DNA from: Tenericutes bacterium MZ-XQ
GTDB lineage: Bacteria; Bacillota_I; Bacilli_A; Acholeplasmatales; Acholeplasmataceae
Direction of reading: 5' to 3'
NCBI GenBank assembly: GCA_002838205.1
Contig: CP017950.1
Span: 1,680,858-1,744,857, forward strand
DNA: 64,000 nucleotides
Position numbers and translations under genes: made by a program
Shown: one piece after another, positions 271 through 43,559 of the stretch
How positions within the stretch are numbered: the stretch's first letter is position 1
Layout of the letters: each line of letters opens with the position of its first letter
Notes under the pieces: model-generated
Told to the model about the DNA's origin: nothing
Seen by the model: only the letters and a program-made list of their open reading frames with translations
Databases searched by the model: none

Positions 271-1437
271 ATGTACTTAATCGGAATTGATATCTCTAAG
301 TACAAACACGACTGCTTCATAGCTACTGAAGCAGGTATTCAAATCAAAGCATTCAGCTTTGATAACAATCGTTTAGGTTTCGATTTATTTCTTGAGGTCT
401 TAAAATCTTTAGATCAGTCAAAAGAAATAAGAATAGGTCTTGAGTCAACAGGACACTATGGATCAAACCTTAAACAGTTTATCACGGCATCTGGTTATAC
501 TTATCTGGAATTTAACCCTTACTTAACGCACATGTTTTCCAAGGCATTATCGTTACGTAAGACAAAGACAGATAAAGTTGACGCCAAAACGATTTCAAGT
601 ATGCTAGGTTCTGTTGACTACAAGACCTTACATACTAAATTTTACCACATCAACGAATTAAAACAACTGGTAAGGTATCGTCATGTTCAAATGGTCAATC
701 GTTCTAAAACACTCATTGAACTGACAAACATCCTTGATCGTATCTTTCCTGAGTTTAAACCTTTTTTTAACGAAAGACTCTCTAGTAGTGCGATGTTCAT
801 CCTTAAAAAGTTCAAATCCAGAGCAAGAATTTCGAAACTTTCTAACAATGACTATGAATCCATTAGAAGTCACTCTAAAGGCAGATTATCTTATGTTAGA
901 GTTCAAAAACTTAAATCTTTAGCTAAATCATCAGTTGGATATGAAACTCAGTCTGATCTGTTACTTCTTAAACACTCCATAAAACACTATGAGACGTTAA
1001 CTGAAATCATTGAATCTGTTGAACATGAAATCATCCATCTCATGGAAAATATCAATCAAACACTGACAACCATTCCAGGTCTCAACATCATCTCTGCAGC
1101 AATTATCATCGCCGAACTTGGTGATTTTAAAAACTTTACAAATCCAGCTCAAATTGTTTCATTTGCTGGACTGGATACATCTGTCAATCAATCAGGAACA
1201 ATAGAAACCAGAGGACATATCGTCAAACGTGGATCCGGATTACTTAGAATGACTTTTTGGCAAATCACTTTTGCGGGCTTAAGATTGAATCCTAAACTCT
1301 ATGATTATTACCTTAAGAAACGTGCTGAAGGTAAACATCATAAAGTCGCCATGGTTCACTCTGTTAGAAAACTAATACGCACGATATACTATTTAGGTGT
1401 CAACCAACTGACATTTGATCATTCACATTTCAAATAA
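271..1437 (+). CDS. IS110-family transposase
   Basis: 388-residue DEDD recombinase that excises and inserts the IS110 element. The N-terminal RuvC-like domain shows D7 (GIDIS), E58 (GLESTG) and the D101/D104 pair (TKTDKVDAK). The C-terminal Transposase_20 domain starts near residue 265 (TIPGLNIISA) and includes SFAGLD and the conserved RGSG region near 325. Length is normal for the family and the frame is intact, so the enzyme could be active. The start is set by a GGAGG site about 7 bases upstream. It lies downstream of the candidate bridge RNA and converges on sufS. Confidence 0.93.
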   Translation: MYLIGIDISKYKHDCFIATEAGIQIKAFSFDNNRLGFDLFLEVLKSLDQSKEIRIGLESTGHYGSNLKQFITASGYTYLEFNPYLTHMFSKALSLRKTKTDKVDAKTISSMLGSVDYKTLHTKFYHINELKQLVRYRHVQMVNRSKTLIELTNILDRIFPEFKPFFNERLSSSAMFILKKFKSRARISKLSNNDYESIRSHSKGRLSYVRVQKLKSLAKSSVGYETQSDLLLLKHSIKHYETLTEIIESVEHEIIHLMENINQTLTTIPGLNIISAAIIIAELGDFKNFTNPAQIVSFAGLDTSVNQSGTIETRGHIVKRGSGLLRMTFWQITFAGLRLNPKLYDYYLKKRAEGKHHKVAMVHSVRKLIRTIYYLGVNQLTFDHSHFK

Positions 1438-6925: not shown

Positions 6926-7432
6926 CTAAAAATATATAACAAGCAATAAGACCGCAGGAATTAATAGAATAAATGTGGAAATAAAAATTACTTTATAATA
7001 ATAACTAGGAATCGGATCATCTTCAATTTTTTTCATATATGTATAATAATCTATTTTTGGTTTCTTACCTGTAATCATTAGGAAAAATGATTTTGTTGAA
7101 TAAATGATAGAAGAAAATATGTTTAAATTATAAACAAAGAACGTCCATCCTATAAAAAATTCTATAACGACAACAAGCCACAAAGCATCAGTAATTGCCA
7201 ATAGGCTGGTATCATTTTGCCAAATCAGTCCAAATATGAATAACAGTATTGAAACAACAGTCATTACTAGTGCGCTTATCAAATGTTTTTTGATTGCTTT
7301 TCTTCTTTTCAGCTTACGTATTTCTTCAGCGCTTTTTTTAGGAGCTTGTGCTTCAGATATTTCTTCTTCTAGATCATCTTCTATTAGAAAGTTTTCTTGT
7401 TCATCAAGCATAATCTTTTGCTCATCTTTCAT
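6926..7432 (-). CDS. small membrane protein, unknown (possibly DUF3899-like)
   Basis: 168 residues: an acidic start rich in E and D, a basic patch (KLKRRKAIKKH, about 40-50), and three hydrophobic helices near 52-70, 80-105 and 146-168. I do not recognise the family with confidence; the arrangement recalls DUF3899. There is no ribosome site directly before the ATG. Instead a 10-codon leader frame with a strong AAAGGAG begins at 7454 and ends inside this gene, so translation may be coupled. It lies between a two-helix membrane protein and the BspA-like protein. Confidence 0.65.
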   Translation of the reverse strand: MKDEQKIMLDEQENFLIEDDLEEEISEAQAPKKSAEEIRKLKRRKAIKKHLISALVMTVVSILLFIFGLIWQNDTSLLAITDALWLVVVIEFFIGWTFFVYNLNIFSSIIYSTKSFFLMITGKKPKIDYYTYMKKIEDDPIPSYYYKVIFISTFILLIPAVLLLVIYF

Positions 7433-7454
7433 CTATATGTATAAGATTTCTCAT
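7422..7454 (-). CDS. 10-codon leader frame overlapping the 168-residue gene
   Basis: ATG at 7454 has AAAGGAG 10 bases upstream (7465-7471), the only good ribosome site in this gap. The frame encodes MRNLIHIDER and its TGA lies just past the ATG of the next gene, in another frame. It probably serves to bring ribosomes to the downstream start. No function for the peptide is proposed. Confidence 0.3.
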   Translation of the reverse strand: MRNLIHIDER

Positions 7455-7500
7455 GAAATCTTTACTCCTTTCGTTGTTTGTATGTTACTCACATACATCG

Positions 7501-8277
7501 CTAGTTGTCATTCACCCTTATTTTACTATACTTTTTGATTTGTTGACAACTATAATAGTAATACTTGCTTGGATATCTCTTTATTGGACAAAGAAAATAT
7601 GCCATACCTTGTTCATTTGAGTATCCAATATTAATATGAATTAAATGTTGATTGTTATGTTTATAGTTTACAATTTGATTAATCTCATTTTTCGCATGAT
7701 CATCTATCTTCTCATAGCGTTTAAACTGAAAAAACAAATGTTTGCTCACTTTGTCATGTTCATCATACTCTCTAAGCTTTTCCTCGACATGTTTTTGAAG
7801 TTCTTCGTTATAAAAGTCGACATCTTTATGTTTTGCAACAACGACAACATTCATGACATGACCAGACTTAGAAACATTTTTGAGCTTAGTTAAGAACTGC
7901 AGATAGACAATGTAGTCATTAGTTTCTAATGTCTTTGTATATCCATCAGTTTCAAATTGTGAAAGCCACGATTTTGTATAAAGTTTGCCATTAACTTTCT
8001 GGATGCCTTCTTGATAGGTGAGCATATGATAATAATCATAATACATACTATAATAAGAAAGTTTACCCCTTAGTAAATTAACATAAACCAAATATCCGAT
8101 GATTAGTGGAATATAAATACTCAGCAGAATATCTGGGTTAATATTTAATACAAAATTAAAAAATGCCCACAGGATTAAAAACACTACAGGGGGTATAAGA
8201 GTAAAAAAGAGAATTTTGTTTCTCTTTTTTTTGTAGTGTTTTAGTTGTTCAATTGGCTGACTTACTTGATTTGCCAT
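7501..8277 (-). CDS. membrane-anchored protein of unknown function
   Basis: 258 residues. Two hydrophobic helices (about 22-45 and 50-68) form a hairpin near the N-terminus; the rest is a soluble, tyrosine- and lysine-rich domain, probably cytoplasmic. I recognise no family. The ATG at 8277 lies inside the end of the preceding lipoprotein gene (16-base overlap) without a clear ribosome site, suggesting coupling. An upstream TTG (8334), with GAAGG before it, would add 19 residues and cannot be excluded. Confidence 0.6.
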   Translation of the reverse strand: MANQVSQPIEQLKHYKKKRNKILFFTLIPPVVFLILWAFFNFVLNINPDILLSIYIPLIIGYLVYVNLLRGKLSYYSMYYDYYHMLTYQEGIQKVNGKLYTKSWLSQFETDGYTKTLETNDYIVYLQFLTKLKNVSKSGHVMNVVVVAKHKDVDFYNEELQKHVEEKLREYDEHDKVSKHLFFQFKRYEKIDDHAKNEINQIVNYKHNNQHLIHINIGYSNEQGMAYFLCPIKRYPSKYYYYSCQQIKKYSKIRVNDN

Positions 8278-9047
8278 ATAGCGTAAACCGTCAATCTTTG
8301 AGATCTTGTAAATATTTCTCCATTGACATACCAAGTACCTTCACCATCAGAGCGTGAATTCCAACCAAGGAACACATAACTATCTGTATCTTCCATATCA
8401 GGGAAATCTATAACATCTCCATAAGGTATAGATATTGAATTTGGACTTGCAGGTCCACCTTCAACTGGATAATTTGCTCTAAATGAAACTGTTACAATAA
8501 TTGGATCCCAATGTGCATATAAATAAAGATCTTCTGTTTGATCTTTTGGAGTATTTTGATAACCTTTATCACCAGGAATGGTTGATGACTCATCTTCCCA
8601 ATCATATGTATACCAAGCTAAGAATGTATAACCTGTTCTTCTTGCTGTTGGTAAAACAAATGAATCTCCAGCAGTAAACTGTGTCGGATAATCATCTGTT
8701 AACATCGTACCACCGTTTAGATCAAAATATAAGTTTAAAATTTGTGGTTCCCATCCTGCATAAAGAATGATTGTCTTATCACCAAGGACATCATTTTCAA
8801 AGTCCCATAATTCTGTTTTTTCAATATCTTTATACCAACCTGTAAAAGTATAGCCACTTCGTTCAGGTAAATCTGGTTGTTCAATCTTTTCACCTTGTTT
8901 TAAATCTATATAAGAATCTACAGATGTTACATTATTACCAGCAAAAAATAAAACGTTAATTAGTTTTTCATCATTTCCATTATCTCTACATGATGCTAAT
9001 ACTAGTAAGTTAACCATGAGGAATACTACAAGAAGTATTTTTTTCAT
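8262..9047 (-). CDS. lipoprotein with three InlB B-type repeats
   Basis: 261 residues. The signal peptide ends in a lipobox, VLASC (C about 20). Three Listeria-Bacteroides repeats follow, each ending in a GW/AW plus W pattern: YTFTGWYKD...[14 protein letters not shown]...[14 protein letters not shown]...VYAIW. Such repeats occur in surface proteins and are thought to bind ligands or act as spacers. The gene overlaps oppF by four bases (ATGA), so it is transcribed with the oligopeptide transporter. Role in peptide capture is inference. Confidence 0.85.
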
Positions 9048-10933
9048 TTCTTAGTTCCTCCTGTTTTTTTAGTTTCTTTCTTAGGTTTAGCTTCTTGATT
9101 TGATGCTTTATATATTTTTTTATATTCAACAAACTCTTGTTCATTGGCATAAATTAAATGCCCTTCAGCTAATTCTCTAAGTTCAGGTTTATTAATCCTA
9201 TAATCATGCATTCTTGGATTATAGTCGATTCTCTTTCTGCCTTTCTCGTAGTCAGGATCTGGTTGAGGTATCGCAGAAAGCAATGATTTTGTATATGGAT
9301 GCATCGGATTGTTGAATAATTCTTCTGCTGGTGCAACCTCTACAATTTTACCATAGTACATAACTGCTATTCTATCACAGAAAAATCTTACAACAGATAA
9401 ATCATGTGCGATAAATAGTATTGTAAGTCCAAGTTCATCTTTTAATTTTGTTAATAAGTTGATGACTTGAGCTCTAATAGAAACGTCTAATGAAGAGATT
9501 GGTTCATCAGCAATGATAACACTTGGATTCATAATAAGTGCTCTTGCGATACCAATTCTTTGTCTTTGACCACCACTAAACTCATGTGGATATCTTGTAC
9601 CATATTCAGCACTTAACCCAACTAACTGAAGTGCTTCTCCAACTTTTTTGCTAATTTCTTCATCAGTGTAACCACCTTGAATAATTAAACCTTCTCCAAC
9701 AATTTCTTTAACAGTCATTCTTGGATTTAATGAAGAAATTGGATCTTGGAAGATCATTTGCATTTTTCTTGAGTTTTCTAATGCTTCGTGAGACTTATTA
9801 GTCTTTTTAATTTCATCAATAATATCTTTTTGTTCTTTGATTTTTTCTTTAGCTTCTTGCTTGATTTGTTCAACTAAGTTTTTATCAACAACCGTACTAG
9901 TACTATCTTTTGAAATACCGTCAATAAGGTTTTTGTATTCTTGTTTGACTTGATTGATTTCGGCTAATTTTTCATCAGCCTTTTGTTTGTAACTTAGTTT
10001 AATCTTTTTAAGCTCATTATTGATCTCAGTTTTGTTTGGATATACAACGCTACGTTTTTGCTCTAGATATTGCTTTTTAAGTTCGGCTTTTTCTTGATTT
10101 CTTTGAGCTTTTAATTGCTTAATTTGTTCGTTTGCAGCTTTGTGATCAATAATATCATTTTCAGCATTTTTAATTAAAGGTTCATATTTAGCATCAATTT
10201 GAGCTTTGAGCTTCAAATACTCTTCCTTTTGAACTTCCATTCTTTCTTTAATAACTTCTGCTTTTAAAGCAGCTGATTCTTTTAATGCTTCAATTCTTCT
10301 TTGATATCTTCTTAAAGCGAGTTTTAGTTCGTAATCATATTCTTTTGCAGCAGTATTATTGATGTGGCCAAGAATTTCATTCTTTTTAAGATGAAAATTA
10401 TAATCTACATTTTCTACATCCAAATTGAACTTGTTTTTCAGTTCATACAATGTAGCATTGTAGTTTTCAATTGGATCTTGTGCCTTTTTAAGGTCGATTT
10501 TTTCTTGCTTTCTAATGCTTTCTAAATCACCTTTTAAAAGCTCAATTTTTTGGTTCAACTCTTTCTTTAGATCAAGAACCTTGCGGTTATATTCATTTAA
10601 TGAAGCAATCTTTTCTTTTGCTTCTTGTTTAATTTCTTTAATTCTAATTTTGTTACCTTGGTATCCTGCAGAAATGCGAACGCCATCTAAATCAATCGTT
10701 CCATCTGTTGGTGTATATAACTTAATGATTGTTCTTCCTGTTGTAGTCTTTCCACATCCAGATTCACCAACTAAACCAAAAACTTCTCGTTTGTGCACAT
10801 CAAAAGATACACCGTCTACTGCTGGTACAGCAAGTTTGTTTTTACCAGTACCAGAGAAAAAATATTTTCTTAAGTTTTTGACTTCTAAAACTTTTTTTGA
10901 ATAATCAACAGTTGAAGTATTTTCTTTTTTCAT
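9044..10933 (-). CDS. oppF: oligopeptide ABC transporter ATPase OppF with coiled-coil insertion
   Basis: 629 residues, about twice the usual length. The Walker A ([12 protein letters not shown]) and the strand after it (TIDLDGVRI) are followed by about 300 residues rich in K, E, Q and L (about 90-385), predicted coiled coil. The fold then resumes at the Q-loop ([14 protein letters not shown]), signature ([15 protein letters not shown]), Walker B ([12 protein letters not shown]) and the [12 protein letters not shown] tail typical of OppF. All catalytic motifs are kept, so it should hydrolyse ATP. The insertion would point out of the nucleotide domain into the cytoplasm. It overlaps oppD by one base. 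Confidence 0.92.
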
Positions 10934-35950: not shown

Positions 35951-37258
35951 ATGGACCCTATCTTACTCAAATATAAGTTTATAGATCTCTTAGCCTTCGC
36001 TGCGATGCAGGGTAAGGATGTCTATGAAAATGAACTGAATAAACTTTCAAATTTGAAAGCCTATCGAAAGCCAAAACTAACCATTCAATCCATCTTTCAA
36101 ACATACTGGCCCATATTTAAACCTTTGTTTATCGATAGACTAAGACCTGCCATCATTTCTAATGTTGAAAAAATGATTGACTGTAAAAATTTATCTAAAG
36201 GACATCTTTTTTTCGAGTGTCCTTCTTGTGATAACTTTCATCTCCAAGGTTTATCTTGTCATTCTAGATTTTGTGTTTCTTGTAACCAGAACTATCGTGA
36301 GAAAAGAACGATTGCTGTTCAATCAAAACTTTTAGATGTCCCTCACCGTCACTTCGTCTTTTCTATCGCTAGAGAACTTAGAGATTACTTTAGAATTTAT
36401 CGGGGGCTTTTTGATGTCTTTTTCTCATCTGTTAATGAAGCGCTTCAAGCACTTGTCTTTTCATCAAAGATTGCAGTTAAAGAAGATCGTAGACTTGGTC
36501 TCATTGCTTTTCTTCATACCTTTGGGCGTGATCTTAAGTTTAATCCTCATATTCACGTTTTGGTTGCTGAAAGAACGCTCGATCTCAATCAAAACTTGCG
36601 AAAGTTTTCTTACTTTCATTTTGAAAAACTTAGACTTTACTTCCAACTTGCTTTACTTAGAAATATCTCAAATTACTTAAAGGTCCACGCGAGTAAGGAC
36701 ATCTATAACCGCTTCAATCGTTTGAGATCTTCTCTCATCTCAAAATATAAGAAAGGCTTTTATGCACATGGTCCAAAACTTAAAGATTATGGTTTTCTGA
36801 ATGCTGCGAAAAAAGTTTCTGATTATATCACACGTTATGCTTCACGTCCTGCAATTTCTGAAGAACGTATTTTGAATCTCGATACTTCTACCCATATGAT
36901 CACTTGGACCTATGATCCTCATGAAGATGATGATAAATCAGAAGATGATCCTTCATTTCTTGGTAGACAAACCATCACTGAACATGTCTTTAGGTTTATT
37001 GCCAAACTCATCGTTCACATTCCAGATGAGCACTTTCACACCATTCGCTATTTTGGTTTCTATGCAAATAAATCAAAGAAATCGGTCGCTACTTTCAAAA
37101 AACTACTTTCAAATGCTTCTATTAAACTCAAACGTTCTCGCTCAAATTGGATACATATGCTAAAATCAATTTATAAGTATCATCCCATCTTATGTTCATG
37201 TGGCCACATCATGAAACTTAATCTAGATTATTCTTTACTAAGAGACCCCGGAGGTTAA
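35951..37258 (+). CDS. IS91-family HUH transposase
   Basis: 435 residues. A zinc-binding domain (C90, C93, C103, C108, C111) is followed by the metal-binding HUH motif in NPHIHVL (H200, H202) and by twin tyrosines Y292 and Y296 in DYITRYASRP, the YxxxY pair of IS91-type nickases. The reading frame is intact. There is no evident ribosome site; a TATAAT lies just upstream of the ATG, so the mRNA may be nearly leaderless. A 73-residue frame follows four bases after the stop. Confidence 0.9.
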   Translation: MDPILLKYKFIDLLAFAAMQGKDVYENELNKLSNLKAYRKPKLTIQSIFQTYWPIFKPLFIDRLRPAIISNVEKMIDCKNLSKGHLFFECPSCDNFHLQGLSCHSRFCVSCNQNYREKRTIAVQSKLLDVPHRHFVFSIARELRDYFRIYRGLFDVFFSSVNEALQALVFSSKIAVKEDRRLGLIAFLHTFGRDLKFNPHIHVLVAERTLDLNQNLRKFSYFHFEKLRLYFQLALLRNISNYLKVHASKDIYNRFNRLRSSLISKYKKGFYAHGPKLKDYGFLNAAKKVSDYITRYASRPAISEERILNLDTSTHMITWTYDPHEDDDKSEDDPSFLGRQTITEHVFRFIAKLIVHIPDEHFHTIRYFGFYANKSKKSVATFKKLLSNASIKLKRSRSNWIHMLKSIYKYHPILCSCGHIMKLNLDYSLLRDPGG

Positions 37259-40635: not shown

Positions 40636-41562
40636 ATGCCCAAGTTCAAAATATGTTCACTTTGTGGTACAGTTAATTCTACAATCAAGCATGGTCGTAC
40701 TAAGAATGGTAAACCGAGATTTAAGTGTAAATCTTGTATGGGAACTTTTATACAAGACGAATCTACAACAAGTTACTTAAATAATAGTGATTACATCTTC
40801 AAAAGATTTATTGGATTTATGATTGATGATGTAACTTTAGAAGTAATCGCAAGAAACCTAAGCATTGATATAAAGACAGCTTTATATTATCGATACCTTA
40901 TCTTCGAATCTTTAAGAGATTACCAAGATGAGGTATTTTTGAATGGAACTATTCTAGTAGATGAGACTTTCGTCAGAATAAGTGATAAAAGATATAAACT
41001 GGTTAGACGTGATGGTAAGGGGATTAGAGGGATTTCATTTAATCATCTTTGCGTGATTACTTTGATAAGTTTAGAAGGAATAACTATAGCTAAAGTGTCA
41101 TCAAGAGGAAACGCTTCACCAAAAAAGTTTATTGATTTATGTACAAAAAACATTGGAGAAGTGACTAAATTTATCCATGATGGATCGGTAATACAGAAAC
41201 AATTTATGCGTCAATTTAGTGTCCCTAATTATGATGCACGCAGAGAATGTGATGGAAAATACAATACACTTTTAGTAGATTCATTACATAGCAATATAAA
41301 AAGATACTTATTCAAGCACGCAGGATATCGTCTAAAAAATCTACAACATTACATGAATTTTTTCGTTTATAGATATAATCATACGCCTAAATCAAAACAC
41401 ATTAACAGTCGTCAAATTATTGAAAGCAGGAATTCTATGATTGATGATTTATACAGAAGAGTTAAAAAGATAAAAAAGAGAATCACTTATAGAAATTTCC
41501 AAAGTGATCCTGGAATTACGGATGTACTAGAATCAGTGAGTAGTGATTATTATGAAAAATAA
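40636..41562 (+). CDS. IS1595-like transposase
   Basis: 308 residues. N-terminal zinc ribbon (C7, C10, C31, C34), then a DDE-type nuclease core: D109 in LVDETF, D182 in IHDGSV, and N220/K222 in LHSNIKRYL, fitting the DDNK pattern of the IS1595 group. The frame is complete and ends inside the right terminal repeat. AAGGAG lies 5 bases before the ATG. Its leader holds the interlaced repeats. Family assignment is by motif and terminal-repeat type. Confidence 0.87.
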   Translation: MPKFKICSLCGTVNSTIKHGRTKNGKPRFKCKSCMGTFIQDESTTSYLNNSDYIFKRFIGFMIDDVTLEVIARNLSIDIKTALYYRYLIFESLRDYQDEVFLNGTILVDETFVRISDKRYKLVRRDGKGIRGISFNHLCVITLISLEGITIAKVSSRGNASPKKFIDLCTKNIGEVTKFIHDGSVIQKQFMRQFSVPNYDARRECDGKYNTLLVDSLHSNIKRYLFKHAGYRLKNLQHYMNFFVYRYNHTPKSKHINSRQIIESRNSMIDDLYRRVKKIKKRITYRNFQSDPGITDVLESVSSDYYEK

Positions 41563-41585: not shown

Positions 41586-41606
41586 AAAAAAAAGACCAAA
41601 GGTCTA
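41586..41606 (-). terminator. terminator of the kinase-like gene, entered by the IS1595-like element
   Basis: On the minus strand AGACC, loop TTT, GGTCT, then eight or nine T. The insertion junction falls at the end of that T-run, and the stem overlaps the stop codon of the gene. Confidence 0.75.
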
Positions 41607-42341
41607 TTTTGTAATATCTTTGTTTTTAGGATCATATACTAAAGTTGTTAAAACTTTGTGTTCGAAAATATCATCTGTCTCAATCATTTTGATTGCTGCC
41701 ATCAGTGGGACTGCAAAAAGAATTTTTTCTTTATCAAAATCCATGATGGATGAAGCTTTATTCAAATAGTTTTTTGCAAGATCATATTGCTCTAACCTAA
41801 GCGTAACATATGTACTAGCAACATCTAATATCGGATTGGCAAGTTTCGCGTGAATCCAATCCATAATATAGTATGAACTATCATGAAGAACAACATGAGA
41901 AGGCTGATAATCAAAATGACATAAATAGTTTTCATACTCTATGGTTTCTAATACATTTTGTGCGATATGTTTGATCTCTTTTGCGAGCTGACTCATCTCA
42001 ATCCATCTTTTAAATACGATATGTGCATTTTCAAGTTCAAGGCCTTTATATTGGTGAATTTCATGCTGAATGTTTACAAAGTCATTGAGTAATGCTTCAT
42101 CGATATTTCTGATTAAGTAAAATCCTAAATTTTGATGGCTTAGATAAGGCATTTTTATTTCATGTGCATTTACTTTTTCAACATCAGAGACATTCAAGTG
42201 CGTTTTACGTCTTAAAATATCGTGTATGTATATTTCTTTATCCACCCATTCTTCAGGATAAAAATCATCGTATGTTTTATACACGATGTCGTCTTCGATA
42301 TAAACTTTCGCCATGTGACCATGTTTCAAAATAGTTCTCAA
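41604..42341 (-). CDS. aminoglycoside phosphotransferase-fold kinase, atypical
   Basis: 245 residues with the APH/choline-kinase fold. A short glycine loop (HGHMAKVY) and K22 open the N-lobe. The catalytic loop is CHFDYQPSHVVL with D144, where the usual HGDxxxxN asparagine is replaced by H149. The second metal site is IMDW (D161). The start is TTG at 42341, since a later ATG (42314) would cut the glycine loop; no ribosome site is clear for either. Substrate unknown: sugars, choline or an antibiotic are possible. Confidence 0.75.
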   Translation of the reverse strand: MRTILKHGHMAKVYIEDDIVYKTYDDFYPEEWVDKEIYIHDILRRKTHLNVSDVEKVNAHEIKMPYLSHQNLGFYLIRNIDEALLNDFVNIQHEIHQYKGLELENAHIVFKRWIEMSQLAKEIKHIAQNVLETIEYENYLCHFDYQPSHVVLHDSSYYIMDWIHAKLANPILDVASTYVTLRLEQYDLAKNYLNKASSIMDFDKEKILFAVPLMAAIKMIETDDIFEHKVLTTLVYDPKNKDITK

Positions 42342-42397
42342 TCTATCACAACCAAACTTGTCGATATAATAAAAACAAGGACAAAATCCTTGTTTGA

Positions 42398-42754
42398 TTA
42401 CGTAGTCGTATTAAAAATAATATGAATGATAATTAAAACAAACGTGATTGGACCCATCACACGGTGTGCAATGTATAATTTTTTATTTTTAAGCTTCGAA
42501 AACATCATTCCAAATGCACCTGTTAATAATAATGCGATGAGCGTCAATAATCCGGTAAGTCTTAAAGCATCATTAATGATAGCGATGATAAAGTGTGTCA
42601 ATGCAGACAAAGATGCAGCCATACCAAAAATCTTATGTTTTGATGCAATCCATAAGACTGGTTTATTTTTTATATATTTTTTGATACCATTCGTCATCGC
42701 AAGCACAAAGAAGACAACTGTTAATATCCCTAGAATAATAAGCAATGCATCCAT
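42398..42754 (-). CDS. four-helix membrane protein with twin HX13H (heme-like) pattern
   Basis: 118 residues, four predicted helices. Helix 2 has H40 and H54, and helix 4 has H97 and H111, each pair 14 residues apart. This is the spacing by which two helices hold two b-type hemes in cytochrome b and ferric reductases. ATG 42754 has GGAGG 7 bases upstream; the longer frame from 42793 has none. I know no named family for it. It is divergent from a YczE-type membrane protein. A redox role is inference from the histidines. Confidence 0.7.
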   Translation of the reverse strand: MDALLIILGILTVVFFVLAMTNGIKKYIKNKPVLWIASKHKIFGMAASLSALTHFIIAIINDALRLTGLLTLIALLLTGAFGMMFSKLKNKKLYIAHRVMGPITFVLIIIHIIFNTTT

Positions 42755-42809
42755 ACAAATCCTCCAATAAATGATTTGTATATATCTTATCATAATTTTT
42801 CTAATAATG

Positions 42810-42844
42810 TGTCAATAATCTTTGAATTTTATTGATTATTGACA
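42810..42844. promoter_or_regulatory. inverted repeat between divergent membrane protein genes
   Basis: TGTCAATAAT (42810-42819) and ATTATTGACA (42835-42844) are perfect 10-bp complements spaced by 15 bases. The right arm contains a TTGACA box. Probably an operator for the divergent pair. Confidence 0.45.
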
Positions 42845-42871: not shown

Positions 42872-42905
42872 GTTAATTAGTAGTTGATCAACCTTGGAGG
42901 TCAAT

Positions 42906-43559
42906 ATGGATCAAAAGTTTATGAAAAACTATCCGTTACGGATATTCTTGTATGTGTTTGGGATCATGATTCTAGGATTAGGTATTAATGTCTTACTAAG
43001 ATCATCACTTGGTGCTGGAGCATGGGACACTGTCTCAAATAATTTCAGTCAACTGATTGGTATGACAATCGGTACAGCTTCTATCATCATCAATGTTACT
43101 GTATTAGCTTTTGTTTTTTTATACAACAAACATTGGAAATATCTATTCATTTTAGTTCCAGTTTTTAGTTTGGGCTTAGTCATTGACTTCTGGGATATCA
43201 TTGTTTTTGGTAGTTACACAGTAAATGTCCTTTGGCTACAACTCATCTTCTATGTGGGTGGTGCAGTCATTTTATCTTTAGGCTTAGCAGTGATCATCGT
43301 TTCAAAATACCCTGCAATGGTCTATGATGAACTCACTATAAGTTTAATGCGTCTTTTGAACATAAAGAAATTTTTTACGATGCGTATCATGATTGAGTTA
43401 TTCGCCATTGTACTCGCAACGTTATTTGGTTTTTTAGCAGGCATAGGTTTTGGGGCAGTTAATGTCGGCAGTTTCATACTAGCTTTCGCAATAGGTCCAA
43501 TGATTACCCTGCATATAAAGTGGTTAAACACTTTATTTAGAACTGAAGCCATATCATAA
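42906..43559 (+). CDS. YczE/YitT-type integral membrane protein
   Basis: 217 residues with five or six helices. The first part, YVFGIMILGLGINVLLRSSLGAGAWD, is the hallmark of the YczE/YyaS family. GGAGG precedes the ATG at 42906. Family members are membrane proteins of unknown transport or secretion role; in Bacillus YczE affects lipopeptide production. Confidence 0.82.
   Translation: MDQKFMKNYPLRIFLYVFGIMILGLGINVLLRSSLGAGAWDTVSNNFSQLIGMTIGTASIIINVTVLAFVFLYNKHWKYLFILVPVFSLGLVIDFWDIIVFGSYTVNVLWLQLIFYVGGAVILSLGLAVIIVSKYPAMVYDELTISLMRLLNIKKFFTMRIMIELFAIVLATLFGFLAGIGFGAVNVGSFILAFAIGPMITLHIKWLNTLFRTEAIS

Follow-up and report, generated by a model that had tools for sequence, protein, structure and literature searches.

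The stacking of two b hemes inside a bundle of membrane helices is an arrangement that is already known, and so are stand-alone di-heme cytochromes, for example those of the DUF4405 family. For the ferric reductase domain (PF01794, with NOX, FRE, STEAP and YedZ/MsrQ in its superfamily) the layout of the heme ligands is described in PMC3591440: short ferric reductase domains mostly have two or three histidines, and the rare ones with four are found near the long forms. One DUF4405 (PF14358) protein and FezC, with a like histidine pattern, were shown to bind heme b (PMC11334425). In cytochrome b6 the histidines are on one helix of each hairpin and packing glycines on the other, with quasi-two-fold symmetry (PMC5730185). 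The Mollicutes are described in a review as having neither quinones nor cytochromes (PMC7930009).

Here, we describe a 118-residue protein encoded in a stretch of 64,000 nucleotides from Tenericutes bacterium MZ-XQ, a member of the Acholeplasmataceae whose genome is a single contig of 2,157,199 bases. This whole stretch is referred to as the window. We consider it likely that the protein is a minimal bis-histidine di-heme b cytochrome, that is, a two-heme transmembrane electron wire. The best reading of its design is kinship with the ferric reductase and DUF4405 cytochromes, minus the outer helices and any flavin domain.

The comparison with each of the known systems shows both likeness and difference. 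As in the PF01794 superfamily, four histidines are placed on two parallel helices, one helix apart; however, there are four helices instead of six and no FAD or NAD domain. The FAD- and NADPH-binding domains carried on the chain of NADPH oxidases and long ferric reductases are absent. Having all four histidines, the protein also differs from most short ferric reductase domains. With DUF4405 and FezC it shares two HX13H pairs and, by prediction, the form of a stand-alone membrane cytochrome without a flavin domain. Six DUF4405 proteins that we aligned from the phylum sample have the same two pairs in 214-280 residues, and DUF4405 has six helices (PMC11334425), while our model has four. The core of cytochrome b/b6 (helices A-D) is likewise a glycine helix and a two-histidine helix, used twice with quasi-two-fold symmetry, but our protein has 118 residues instead of the about 215 of cytochrome b6, and it comes without partner subunits and without detected quinone synthesis. 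Finally, it is about equal in size to the designed proteins 4D2 and CytbX, the latter membrane-embedded, and shares their plan of a four-helix di-heme bundle (PMC10120048). Those are man-made, with hemes about 6 Å apart and histidines placed symmetrically on alternating helices, whereas the window protein is natural and has cytochrome-b-like spacing.

Its novelty lies in its minimal size, in a hairpin repeat that is still visible and in where it occurs: a free-living relative of the mollicutes without detected UbiA or ferrochelatase genes. A stand-alone core of four helices and four histidines is a variant of which we found no description in the literature examined. With a size about that of the designed di-heme wires, it offers a natural counterpart for the minimum of protein around two stacked hemes.

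The gene and its four histidines

The gene is read on the minus strand, from 42754 to 42398 with the stop codon included. The preliminary description had placed it correctly and left the strand unstated; the plus strand of the same interval is rich in stop codons. The features are, in window positions:

42398 to 42754, minus strand: gene of the 118-residue four-helix protein (open reading frame and translation, dN/dS, homologues in 24 genomes)
42761 to 42765, minus strand: ribosome-binding site GGAGG, found by eye, six bases ahead of the ATG at 42754
42789 to 42815, minus strand: promoter-like TTGACA, 15 bases, TATGAT, found by eye
42373 to 42395, minus strand: terminator-like stem-loop, immediately past the stop codon
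42635 to 42637, minus strand: codon of H40, predicted cytosol-side heme ligand, conserved in 23/23 genomes reaching the position
42593 to 42595, minus strand: codon of H54, predicted outer heme ligand, 23/23 genomes
42464 to 42466, minus strand: codon of H97, predicted cytosol-side heme ligand, 24/24 genomes
42422 to 42424, minus strand: codon of H111, predicted outer heme ligand, 22/22 genomes

The promoter-like pair, with its spacing of 15, was not reported by a promoter scan that required 16-18. Two terminator-like sites were found in the region, against 0.2 expected from shuffled sequences. Given the ribosome-binding site, the promoter-like boxes and the stem-loop past the stop codon, the gene looks like a single-gene transcription unit. 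One flank is an APH-like gene (41604-42341, minus strand) just below the Pfam cut-off, and the other is a divergent gene (42894-43559, plus strand) with a weak YitT-like match. By eye, three transposase-like reading frames can also be seen in the window (271-1437, 35951-37258 and 40636-41562, all on the plus strand), one of which lies within 1 kb of the gene.

According to the translation, H40, H54, H97 and H111 are the only histidines of the protein. The two HX13H pairs that had been noticed in this small membrane protein, H40/H54 and H97/H111, are confirmed and are located in helices 2 and 4. If four histidines are placed randomly in 118 positions, two pairs 14 apart are obtained in 0.07% of the cases, or in 2.4% when any spacing of 11-16 is permitted. 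By themselves such odds are weak evidence, as the window contains many proteins; the case rests on conservation.

All four histidines are unchanged in the homologues wherever the sequence reaches, and free variation was not seen. The counts given above were made by hand over 24 genomes, with duplicate loci merged and five incomplete genes kept in; in the assembly these five either are incomplete or shift frame towards their end, and one is split over two contigs. In an alignment of 17 sequences, down to 26% identity, no column is invariant other than those of the four histidines and G68; next come G9 and G82 (16/17 each) and R98 (15/17). The dN/dS is about 0.09 against a 79%-identical orthologue and 0.18 against a 67%-identical one, which shows purifying selection on the gene; synonymous sites are close to saturation in this analysis. 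A 132-residue relative (L059 3851-4249, plus strand, in G021) has a long insertion ahead of helix 2 and retains both HX13H pairs.

Predicted fold, internal repeat and family relations

An AlphaFold2 model based on 13 sequences has helices at residues 3-27, 31-38, 40-60, 66-88 and 91-117, with a mean pLDDT of 94. It is a four-helix bundle with four membrane-length helices, and all 118 residues are within the bundle. Among the best Foldseek matches in the PDB are formate dehydrogenase N, the designed di-heme protein 4D2, STEAP1, cytochrome b and NOX5, all at E >0.2. With VIA-align the Z values are 12.9 for cytochrome b6, 10.6 for STEAP4, 10.4 for b561 and 9.7 for NOX5, over 113-117 residues each and over 117 for cytochrome b6; designed and unrelated four-helix bundles score up to Z 13.1. 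Since unrelated bundles score alike, the structural matches of the model to cytochromes are supportive but non-diagnostic.

The chain appears to be one hairpin, a glycine helix followed by an HX13H helix, used twice over. When the N-terminal half is aligned with the C-terminal half an E-value of 3.2e-6 is obtained, and none of 200 hydrophobicity-preserving shuffles is equally good. The alignment pairs G9 with G68, G23 with G82, H40 with H97 and H54 with H111. With the histidines masked the repeat is marginal: the E-value is 0.009, and 3 of 100 shuffles are equally good. A repeat that is still visible bears on the possible origin of the cytochrome b core by doubling of a hairpin.

Four transmembrane helices would hold two stacked, non-covalently bound b hemes, one ligated by H40 and H97 near the cytosol and the other by H54 and H111 near the outside. 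On helices 1 and 3 there are, just like in cytochrome b/b6, glycines 14 residues apart, of which position 23 is weaker (glycine in 12/17 sequences); these small residues would leave space for the hemes. Lysines and arginines are clustered in the loops past helices 1 and 3, so by the positive-inside rule H40 and H97 are predicted to be near the cytosol. Heme binding and orientation are things that we infer, and the same goes for the direction, the donor and the acceptor discussed below.

No Pfam family is matched above its cut-off by the window protein. Its best family match is Ferric_reduct (PF01794), where it scores 24.1 bits against a gathering cut-off of 28 bits; three of the nine relatives scanned pass this cut-off (L007 with 30.7, L008 with 28.9 and L010 with 33.8). 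For DUF4405 (PF14358) its score is 15.3, that of the best relative 26.4, and the cut-off 26.7. Eukaryotic b561 (PF03188, cut-off 23) does not match the window protein, and one relative, L010, passes at 29.7. Over 13 members of the family, all match Ferric_reduct at E<1 (best 4e-8), 11 match DUF4405 (best 9.7e-6) and six match eukaryotic b561 at E<1; the match to prokaryotic b561 (PF01292) is weak, with six members at E<1 and a best value of 0.0019. Further, in the relatives the start of the Ferric_reduct profile can align with either half, in line with the internal repeat. For the window protein there is no match to cytochrome b families in Pfam up to E 10 and none to transport, signalling, FAD or NADPH domains, and nothing relevant was matched by sequence when solved structures were searched with profiles.

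When the family is compared as a profile to NOX-like proteins from the same order, all four histidines fall on the four invariant histidines of those proteins (probability 36, E 4e-4). The probability is 59 for MsrQ-like paralogues, and the alignment to DUF4405 covers 23 columns only. Both probabilities, for the NOX-like and for the MsrQ-like proteins, are low.

The proposal that this is a two-heme cytochrome is supported by the conservation of the histidines, by the fold model and by Pfam matches that, though weak, agree in pointing to membrane domains with heme, the heme being predicted. What speaks against it are the Pfam scores below cut-off, the Foldseek E-values above 0.2, the equal Z values of designed or unrelated bundles, the low-probability profile matches, the marginal repeat when histidines are masked and, as described below, the lack of ferrochelatase and of a conserved neighbour.

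Distribution, heme and quinones

Homologues are found in 24 genomes in total. Of a set of 61 genomes, 15 have one (17 listed, two weak unrelated matches dropped); among 160 genomes from the order the number is 19, after removal of a NOX-like protein from the 20 listed, and in a phylum-wide sample of 392 it is nine, where one of the nine, G154, is remote. The two dropped matches, in G006 and G019, are other membrane proteins without the histidine pattern, and the one dropped from the order-wide search, in G008, is a NOX-like protein of 449 residues. A weak second match in the genome of the window is not a second copy; it is an MsrQ-like paralogue in which the canonical first histidine is an arginine, which is given as a mark of YedZ/STEAP (PMC3591440). 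No homologue was found in the plasmid records and viral contigs searched.

The organism of the window is congeneric with Tenericutes bacterium MO-XQ, by kinship and common contig position. In MO-XQ (CP017948.1) there are two copies of the gene with equal score, at about 1.638 Mb (L032) and 1.737 Mb (L033). They lie about 99 kb apart and suggest that a large segment was duplicated or that the assembly contains a repeat.

We read the open reading frames in 18 neighbourhoods of relatives. There is no conserved neighbour and no partner gene that could be named, and gene order is common to close relatives only. Neither an iron transporter nor a flavin reductase gene adjoins in these 18 neighbourhoods.

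Ferrochelatase, which completes heme synthesis, is found in 0/61 genomes and in 8/14 controls, which means that heme must come from outside; probably it is scavenged. That a heme protein would be unexpected in this lineage, as had been remarked, is in agreement both with this result and with the review of the Mollicutes (PMC7930009). Cytochrome bd is found in 2/61 genomes, both from one genus, both without ferrochelatase and 83-84% complete, and heme scavenging is implied for these two relatives as well. With this distribution cytochrome bd is ruled out as a general partner.

The need for outside heme bears on two further explanations of the protein. In the first, it handles or senses heme and is not a wire: the histidine pairs bind scavenged heme for storage or passage. 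This would suit a lineage without ferrochelatase and a gene that stands alone, but a stack of two HX13H sites, packed by glycines, is how an electron-transfer cytochrome is laid out (PMC5730185), and no transport or signalling domain is present, so we regard it as very improbable. To the same degree we doubt that the four histidines serve a metal ion or proton transfer in a protein without heme. The missing ferrochelatase and the weak family scores could be read in that way; however, the way in which the histidines are spaced and their alignment with known heme ligands argue for heme, as does the glycine pattern, and the cytochrome bd genes in the two relatives without ferrochelatase show that heme is used in the family.

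UbiA prenyltransferase is found above cut-off in 0/61 genomes and in 14/14 controls, which makes a quinone an unlikely partner of the protein. In a cultured member of the Acholeplasmataceae quinones were undetectable (PMC11122141). The same source reports that this member used little oxygen and that its growth was not stimulated by ferrihydrite or AQDS; the latter speaks against dissimilatory use in that strain, which need not be a carrier of the gene. Of the acceptors that had been offered for the protein, iron and oxygen are still candidates, as is extracellular flavin, while quinone is disfavoured.

Possible routes of the electrons

In the two-heme wire electrons would enter at the lysine-rich cytosolic face, pass from heme to heme and leave to an acceptor outside. 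The donor could be a cytosolic flavoprotein or an NqrBCDEF-like complex, and candidates for the acceptor are an extracytosolic FMN protein, ferric iron or oxygen. That the flow is outward, to flavin or iron, is a tentative suggestion to which we give somewhat less than an even chance. In general, a conserved and predicted two-heme membrane protein in a mollicute lineage points to electron transfer across the membrane without quinones.

The protein might instead be the membrane part of a ferric reductase or of an oxidase that forms superoxide, its partner being a separate flavin reductase in the cytosol, in iron uptake or oxygen removal. We find this rather unlikely: Ferric_reduct is the best family match and the four histidines align with those of NOX-like proteins, but the neighbourhoods hold no iron transporter or flavin reductase gene next to it, and the low oxygen use and lack of ferrihydrite stimulation reported for the cultured family member, not necessarily a gene carrier, point the other way (PMC11122141).

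A more specific form of the wire concerns Na+-NQR. The genome of the window has an nqrB-C-D-E-F cluster without nqrA (L094, C1:2024000-2042000, locus 6930-10726, minus strand), in which NqrF is above its NCBIfam cut-off and the other subunits are matched below theirs. NqrA is found above cut-off in 0/61 genomes and in 2/14 controls. With UbiA undetected, an nqrB-F complex lacking nqrA would pump with NADH as its driving force, and there is no obvious quinone for it to reduce. Elsewhere in this genome there is another NqrB/RnfD match, and besides NqrC it encodes two small FMN_bind proteins, as well as the MsrQ-like paralogue. One of the FMN_bind proteins is predicted to be a membrane-anchored protein of 129 residues (L096 6271-7113, minus strand), with flavodoxin-like and MarR-like neighbours by eye; it might act as a flavin partner at the outer face.

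A strong FMN_bind gene of the NqrC/RnfG type is present in 15/15 genomes with the small cytochrome and in 16/46 without it (Fisher 6e-6, uncorrected for ancestry). By genus the numbers are 6/6 and 6/19 (0.005, again ancestry-uncorrected). The genomes were sorted by hand, and the type was assigned when FMN_bind matched at E below 1e-9 starting at position 1 of the profile, which does not separate NQR from RNF; another sorting criterion gives 15/15 and 15/46.

The cytochrome could then be the output module of a quinone-free NQR, with electrons going from NqrBCDEF without NqrA to the cytochrome and on to the outside. The cluster without nqrA, the absence of NqrA and UbiA above cut-off from the 61 genomes and the co-occurrence fit this idea. 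However, the cytochrome and nqr genes are not adjacent, the NqrC/RnfG-type gene also occurs in sixteen genomes that do not have the cytochrome, and the co-occurrence is both uncorrected for ancestry and based on a marker that is blind to NQR versus RNF; we consider this version unlikely. The full picture, in which a natural single-protein di-heme wire of 118 residues and CytbX-like plan, with scavenged heme, lets electrons out of an NADH-driven, quinone-free Na+-NQR that no longer has NqrA, is improbable. If true, it would mean a respiratory chain of flavins and two scavenged hemes, with no quinone, in a group that is said to be free of cytochromes.

Other combinations of these domains occur in related genomes. 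In G026 and G035, of one related genus, a fusion of NqrB and FMN_bind, about 500 residues long, comes after cydA and cydB (L100 6122-10808 and L099 3-4075, minus strand). G026 also has a second NqrD/NqrE-like pair, with a normal nqrB-F cluster adjoining. In the genus of the window organism, G004 is without the small cytochrome and has a Ferric_reduct-FMN_bind fusion of about 336 residues (L098 5914-6924, plus strand).
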